From Candidatus Rokubacteria bacterium RIFCSPLOWO2_02_FULL_73_56 (GTDB taxonomy: Bacteria; Methylomirabilota; Methylomirabilia; Rokubacteriales; CSP1-6): 35,343 nt of DNA. Below, piece after piece: positions 23,754 to 26,234 of this stretch. Position 1 is the stretch's first letter. The number at the start of each line of letters is the position of its first letter. The stretch lies in assembly GCA_001788495.1 (NCBI GenBank), contig MGCF01000010.1:1-35343 (forward strand), given 5' to 3'. The notes below the pieces were generated by a model. It was given only the letters and a program-made list of their open reading frames with translations. It did not search any database and had not been told where the DNA came from. A program made the translations under genes and the position numbers.

Positions 23754-23795
23754 GTGCTCCTCCCGGCTCGGCGTCTCCATCGTACGAACCCGTAG

Positions 23796-23811
23796 AGCAG
23801 CTTCGGTGCCA
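23796..23811 (-). promoter_or_regulatory. Sigma-54 (-24/-12) promoter for the membrane-protein/kinase pair
   Basis: Read on the minus strand the site is TGGCACCGAAGCTGCT. It matches the consensus TGGCACG-N4-TTGCW except at two positions, and keeps the invariant GG and GC exactly 10 nt apart. The predicted start is near 23785, giving a leader of about 32 nt with a good ribosome site before GTG 23753. The gene on the other side of this gap encodes a sigma-54 activator. Confidence 0.62.
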
Positions 23812-26204: not shown

Positions 26205-26234
26205 TTGACAGCCTTCCACGAAATTCAGTATTTT
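26205..26234 (+). promoter_or_regulatory. Sigma-70-type promoter of the hcr/box operon
   Basis: TTGACA (26205-26210, a perfect -35) is followed after 18 bp by TATTTT (26229-26234) inside a short AT-rich island that stands out from the GC-rich surroundings. The predicted start near 26241 gives a leader of about 40 nt to the ATG at 26282. Confidence 0.6.

Follow-up and report, generated by a model that had tools for sequence, protein, structure and literature searches.

Behind the gene for an NtrC-type activator in a soil member of the Rokubacteria lies a short sequence resembling a sigma-54 promoter, which is followed by the genes for a small membrane protein and a hybrid histidine kinase. This arrangement raises the questions of whether the site is a promoter, whether the neighbouring activator drives it, and whether its products act back on the activator's own pathway. 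The stretch of DNA analysed here, 35,343 nt in length (the window), belongs to a genome bin of 4.05 Mb in 189 contigs, and its features are listed in Table 1. The closest relatives that carry a name are Candidatus Rokuibacteriota. The explanation that we favour, and that we consider probable as a whole, is that the site is an enhancer-dependent sigma-54 promoter, that the activator encoded upstream binds a palindrome and drives the genes for the membrane protein and the kinase, that autofeedback results, and that the mRNA is leaderless or nearly so. A full-text search for sigma-54 together with Rokubacteria gave no papers, and sigma-54 control in this group, which is seen here only as metagenome genomes, appears to be undescribed. 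The locus supplies a predicted binding motif, a promoter and a target set for one activator.

Table 1. Features of the activator locus in the window
Feature	Position	Strand	Basis
Alpha/beta hydrolase, first gene of the activator operon	26115-25291	minus	Pfam Abhydrolase_1
NtrC-type response regulator (activator), 452 aa	25288-23930	minus	Pfam, motifs
Palindrome TGTCAGTTCTGAC, probable enhancer (predicted activator binding site)	23913-23901	minus	conservation, helix covariation
-24/-12 sigma-54 promoter (very likely) TGGCACCGAAGCTGCT	23811-23796	minus	motif, matrix score, kept in 14 orthologs
Predicted transcription start; ATG 16 nt after the -12 GC	~23785-23787; ATG 23780-23778	minus	inferred from conserved GC-to-start spacing
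Two-TM protein, 71 aa from GTG (80 aa if ATG 23780)	23753-23538	minus	
Hybrid histidine kinase, 1256 aa	23541-19771	minus	Pfam, motifs

The first-pass annotation had described a 16-mer on the minus strand with a GG-N10-GC core that keeps most of the sigma-54 consensus. This 16-mer, TGGCACCGAAGCTGCT, is present with that spacing, and it departs from TGGCAC-N5-TTGCW at the G after CAC and at the first T of TTGC. Besides this site, which reads CTGGCACCGAAGCTGCTC in extended form (23812-23795), the window contains no strong -24/-12 site. It scores 15.4 bits, and no other site on the two strands of the window scores at least 11, as judged by an approximate weight matrix whose frequencies were chosen by us. 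In simulated DNA of the same composition, about 1.7 sites per Mb per strand score at least 15. The pattern YTGGCRY-N5-YTGCW matches once in the window, where 0.13 matches are expected. The genome contains one rpoN gene (one Sigma54_DBD match, E 2e-61). The pattern YTGGCAY-N5-YTGCWY is not enriched genome-wide (7 matches, and 7 for the reversed pattern), so that the case for a promoter rests on position and conservation and not on the motif alone. This lack of enrichment would suit a chance match, in which case expression of the kinase would rely entirely on readthrough of the activator operon, as would the finding that no terminator is seen between the activator and the downstream genes when folding is compared with that of shuffled sequences. 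Such an origin is nevertheless extremely improbable, because both boxes are kept in 14 species at a fixed spacing to the palindrome and to the start codon, and because sites of this type are strongly enriched behind activators; a chance motif was rejected on the grounds of this conservation and placement. The site is very likely a real promoter of the sigma-54 type.

The conservation is as follows. The pattern YTGGCA[C/T]-N5-CTGCT is kept at the orthologous loci of 14 species, 96-120 nt past the activator stop codon (118 nt in the window), one of these loci having a G before TGGCA. TGGCA and CTGCT are the longest invariant blocks of the aligned region, the mean column conservation of which is 0.60. 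The composite pattern of palindrome plus promoter occurs at 16 places in 14 of the 57 family genomes and only once in the window's genome, at the present locus; the reversed control gives zero matches. The enrichment behind activators is seen within the genome itself. It encodes 21 full sigma-54 activators, and in 9 cases the gene is followed on its own strand by one or more strong -24/-12 sites. Counted on that strand for all 21 genes, 10 strong sites lie in the 29 kb downstream, where composition predicts 0.285, and 0 in the 31 kb upstream. An activator gene followed by a sigma-54 promoter is a habit of this genome, and the present site is one case of it.

The adjacent upstream gene does encode an NtrC-type activator, as had been annotated. 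The protein consists of a receiver, a sigma-54-interacting AAA+ domain and a Fis-type HTH (Pfam), the domain set of an NtrC-type enhancer-binding regulator, and the solved structures closest to it are those of NtrC-family regulators. Its Walker motif is GESGTGKE. Its loop reads GAFSGA, with serine for the threonine of GAFTGA, which counts against the favoured explanation. It falls under the NCBIfam equivalog cut-offs for AtoC (439 against 714 bits), NtrC (396.5 against 558.6 bits) and ZraR (391.9 against 760 bits). The GTG start codon of the activator follows the stop codon of the hydrolase gene by 2 bp, and the synteny with this hydrolase is kept at three other loci (L046, L048 and L064). Sigma-54 autoactivation of the activator was considered and rejected, as the window contains no second site scoring at least 11. 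The activator gene thus lacks a sigma-54 promoter, and any loop can pass only by way of the signalling proteins. A good sigma-70-like promoter (TTGACA-18-TATTTT, 26205-26234, plus strand) is located between the activator operon and the divergent gene for the 2Fe-2S subunit of a molybdenum hydroxylase.

Between the activator gene and the promoter lies the palindrome TGTCAGTTCTGAC, 89 nt upstream of the -24 T, which is the sole match in the window within one mismatch (0.01 expected). Its conserved block, GTCARTTCTGAC (23912-23901), is separated from the -24 T by 87-90 nt in the window and the two relatives nearest to it, and by 65-67 nt in the other orthologs, lying upstream in every case. The difference between the two distances amounts to about two helical turns, which is what DNA looping would predict. 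A conserved palindrome at a fixed and helically phased distance is what a putative upstream enhancer of a sigma-54 promoter would look like. The palindrome was also considered as a terminator, a possibility that was rejected, since it has no T-run and folds no better than shuffled sequences. Activators with the recognition helix LT[VIL]RT[LF]YRR are mostly accompanied by a GTCA..TGAC palindrome. The paralogs, which are 61-69% identical to the activator of the window, have the recognition helix SRRTIYRRLKEYG or close variants of it, and their own -24/-12 sites are preceded by palindromes such as TGCCATGCTGGCA or ATGCCACGGCGGCAT; where the helix is SRRTIYRRLKEYG, the palindrome is TGCCA..TGGCA-like. 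The site and the recognition helix therefore vary in concert, and this covariation links the palindrome to the activator encoded next to it. In G081 and G084 the palindrome has diverged to CCAATAGTGTC, which counts against the favoured explanation. On balance, the palindrome is probably the binding site of this activator, and direct control of the promoter by the activator is likely.

It is unlikely that the promoter, while dependent on sigma-54, is mainly driven by another of the 21 activators of the genome and that the neighbouring activator has other targets. The number of activators leaves room for this, and three orthologs of the activator in genus g4 (L156, L158 and L160), which also count against the favoured explanation, have the same recognition helix and lack such a promoter behind the activator gene. 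However, the palindrome adjoins the same activator in 14 species, and it differs from the palindromes of the paralogs in step with the recognition helix.

The two genes behind the promoter are those that had been reported, a small membrane protein and a hybrid kinase. The gene for the two-TM protein has GGAGG 5 nt upstream of its GTG (23753), and its stop codon is overlapped by the GTG of the kinase gene. The kinase contains multiple GAF domains, HisKA (AHDFNN, H888), HATPase and a C-terminal receiver, and has no TM segment. In all 13 relatives, the first gene behind the promoter encodes a receiver that consists of a single domain (in one case scoring 50.7 bits for Response_reg), which is followed, in most relatives where the contig reaches far enough, by a two-TM protein with a variable loop and then by a hybrid kinase. 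The receiver gene is deleted at the locus of the window (23780-23738, compared with L047:1228-1677), leaving the remnant METPSR, which begins at the ATG listed in Table 1 and is in frame with the two-TM protein. The two-TM protein of the window is a reduced form, the version in the relatives having a longer loop. Relocation of the receiver gene to another place in the window's genome was considered and rejected, the best match being only 32% identical. In G086, G042 and G011 no kinase match was found at the locus and the promoter and the receiver remain, which counts against the favoured explanation. Many other kinase matches are only paralogs in the GAF domains or the kinase core with no adjoining activator, and these were excluded from the comparison. 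Since the receiver is retained without the kinase in some relatives, the constant target of the promoter is signalling parts and not the kinase as such.

The first-pass annotation had proposed a positive loop, in which the activator raises the amount of its own kinase. One part of this proposal stands: the promoter lies behind the activator gene, heads the operon of the TM protein and the kinase, and is accompanied by a conserved palindrome. The other part, that the kinase phosphorylates this activator in a positive loop, is tentative, since the lone receiver encoded first in the relatives could drain phosphate and the kinase is not a constant target. The palindrome, the lost receiver gene and the nearly leaderless start are additions to that annotation. 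Positive feedback is the simplest reading for the species of the window, which has no receiver gene here, and either sign of feedback is possible because in some relatives the receiver alone is left behind the promoter. A negative or buffering loop from the same sigma-54-dependent promoter, in which the lone receiver and the receiver or phosphatase activity of the kinase would drain phosphate from the activator, is a possibility of some weight, although we do not consider it probable. It would agree with the receiver being the most constant target, kept in the three genomes without a kinase at the locus, and with the presence of the same composite site at a gene for a SixA-like histidine phosphatase in G084. 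However, the species of the window has lost the receiver, so that its promoter directly drives the genes for the TM protein and the kinase, and phosphatase activity is not readable from sequence.

According to the favoured explanation, the activator, once phosphorylated, would bind the GTCARTTCTGAC palindrome between its own gene and the promoter, reach the sigma-54 polymerase by DNA looping and open the -24/-12 promoter. The transcript would span the genes for the TM protein and the hybrid kinase, and in the relatives those for the receiver, the TM protein and the kinase, or for the receiver only. The output would be more signalling protein of the same pathway, that is, autofeedback. Since no terminator is seen to separate the genes, readthrough from the hydrolase-activator operon could provide the basal kinase with which the loop would start. 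It is plausible from synteny that the kinase is the partner of the activator, and a hybrid kinase with a C-terminal receiver may need a phosphotransfer (Hpt) protein to act on it. The loss of the receiver or the kinase between species behind a constant promoter would illustrate how a feedback circuit gets rewired.

The locus resembles systems of the NtrC/AtoC/ZraR type, such as ZraSR, in its REC-AAA+-Fis activator, in the probable upstream enhancer palindrome, in the -24/-12 promoter adjoining the activator gene, and in the feedback on the signalling pair that is proposed here. Autoregulation of ZraR has been mentioned (PMC12316311). It differs from them in the promoter, which follows the activator gene and serves the kinase side without the activator, and in the kinase, which is a soluble multi-GAF hybrid. 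The best NCBIfam match of this kinase is CckA, with which it shares an HDFNN-type HisKA, HATPase and a C-terminal receiver; however, it scores 392 against a cut-off of 1000, and its multi-GAF cytosolic input is not the CckA architecture.

The distance from the -12 GC to the first in-frame start codon is 14 nt in 11 species, 15 nt in 2 species and 16 nt in the window. The receivers that were inspected offer no usable alternative start between this codon and the first strand of the domain. At a sigma-54 promoter, transcription is expected to begin about 12 nt after the GC. Sigma-54 boxes of C. jejuni are located 8-13 nt upstream of mapped transcription starts (PMC3847290), and with a spacing of 14-16 nt the leader would therefore measure 0 to about 6 nt. 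The sigma-54 transcripts of these loci should be leaderless or nearly so. At the paralog loci the GC-to-start distance is 14-16 nt in several cases and 18-24 nt in others, and ordinary Shine-Dalgarno leaders follow other sigma-54 sites of the genome, for example the site before glnK. A start right at the first codon is unusual for this promoter type, and a limited literature search found no paper that treats leaderless transcripts from sigma-54 promoters as a class. Leaderless mRNAs, which need no Shine-Dalgarno sequence, have been mapped in bacterial primary transcriptomes (PMC3616915, PMC3847290). The predicted transcripts would be like them, since their expected 5' end falls on the start codon or no more than a few nt from it. 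They differ in that the leaderless mRNAs of C. jejuni follow sigma-70 promoters (PMC3847290), whereas the promoter here is an enhancer-dependent sigma-54 promoter and the arrangement is conserved across species. If these starts are real, they represent a conserved case of enhancer-dependent leaderless mRNA.

Composite sites beyond the activator locus suggest a wider target set. In genus g9 a composite site precedes an Hpt gene alone (L208, G081), an operon for a SixA-like phosphatase, a hybrid kinase, Hpt and a receiver (L209, G084), and the gene for a GAF kinase (L210). Since a hybrid kinase ending in a receiver would need Hpt to reach the activator, this target set would fit one phosphorelay, and the sites at L208 and L209 likely belong to a wider phosphorelay regulon. 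At L209 a short upstream ORF begins with the codon 13 nt after the GC and runs into the start of the phosphatase gene, which it overlaps. A relaxed composite pattern, the control of which also gives 1 match, adds two tentative places in the window's genome. One, on C115 (L213:383-1057), precedes the gene for a probable nucleotide cyclase of class III (23.6 bits for Guanylate_cyc against a cut-off of 21.9), whose start codon lies 15 nt after the GC, and the other, on C133 (L212), precedes genes for a TM protein and a receiver. It is conceivable, and in our judgement close to evenly balanced, that a clan of response regulators in Rokubacteria controls a signalling regulon of receivers, hybrid kinases, Hpt and possibly a nucleotide cyclase through sigma-54 promoters fused to the start codon, which would give conserved enhancer-dependent leaderless mRNAs. 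Translation of the phosphorelay's own parts would then be tied to the leaderless mode, and other sigma-54 genes, such as glnK, would keep their Shine-Dalgarno leaders.

A paralogous activator (62% identical) has its own -24/-12 site behind it (G000:C14:26455-26472, L214:2456-2473), with a start codon 15 nt after the GC. The gene behind this promoter was considered as one for a FIST protein, an assignment that was rejected because the FIST_C likeness is weak and the Pfam score is below the cut-off. Behind another activator gene, at L040 (G000:C139), a -24/-12 site is followed by a P-II (glnB/glnK-like) gene whose Shine-Dalgarno leader is normal, an arrangement like that of NtrC in other bacteria.
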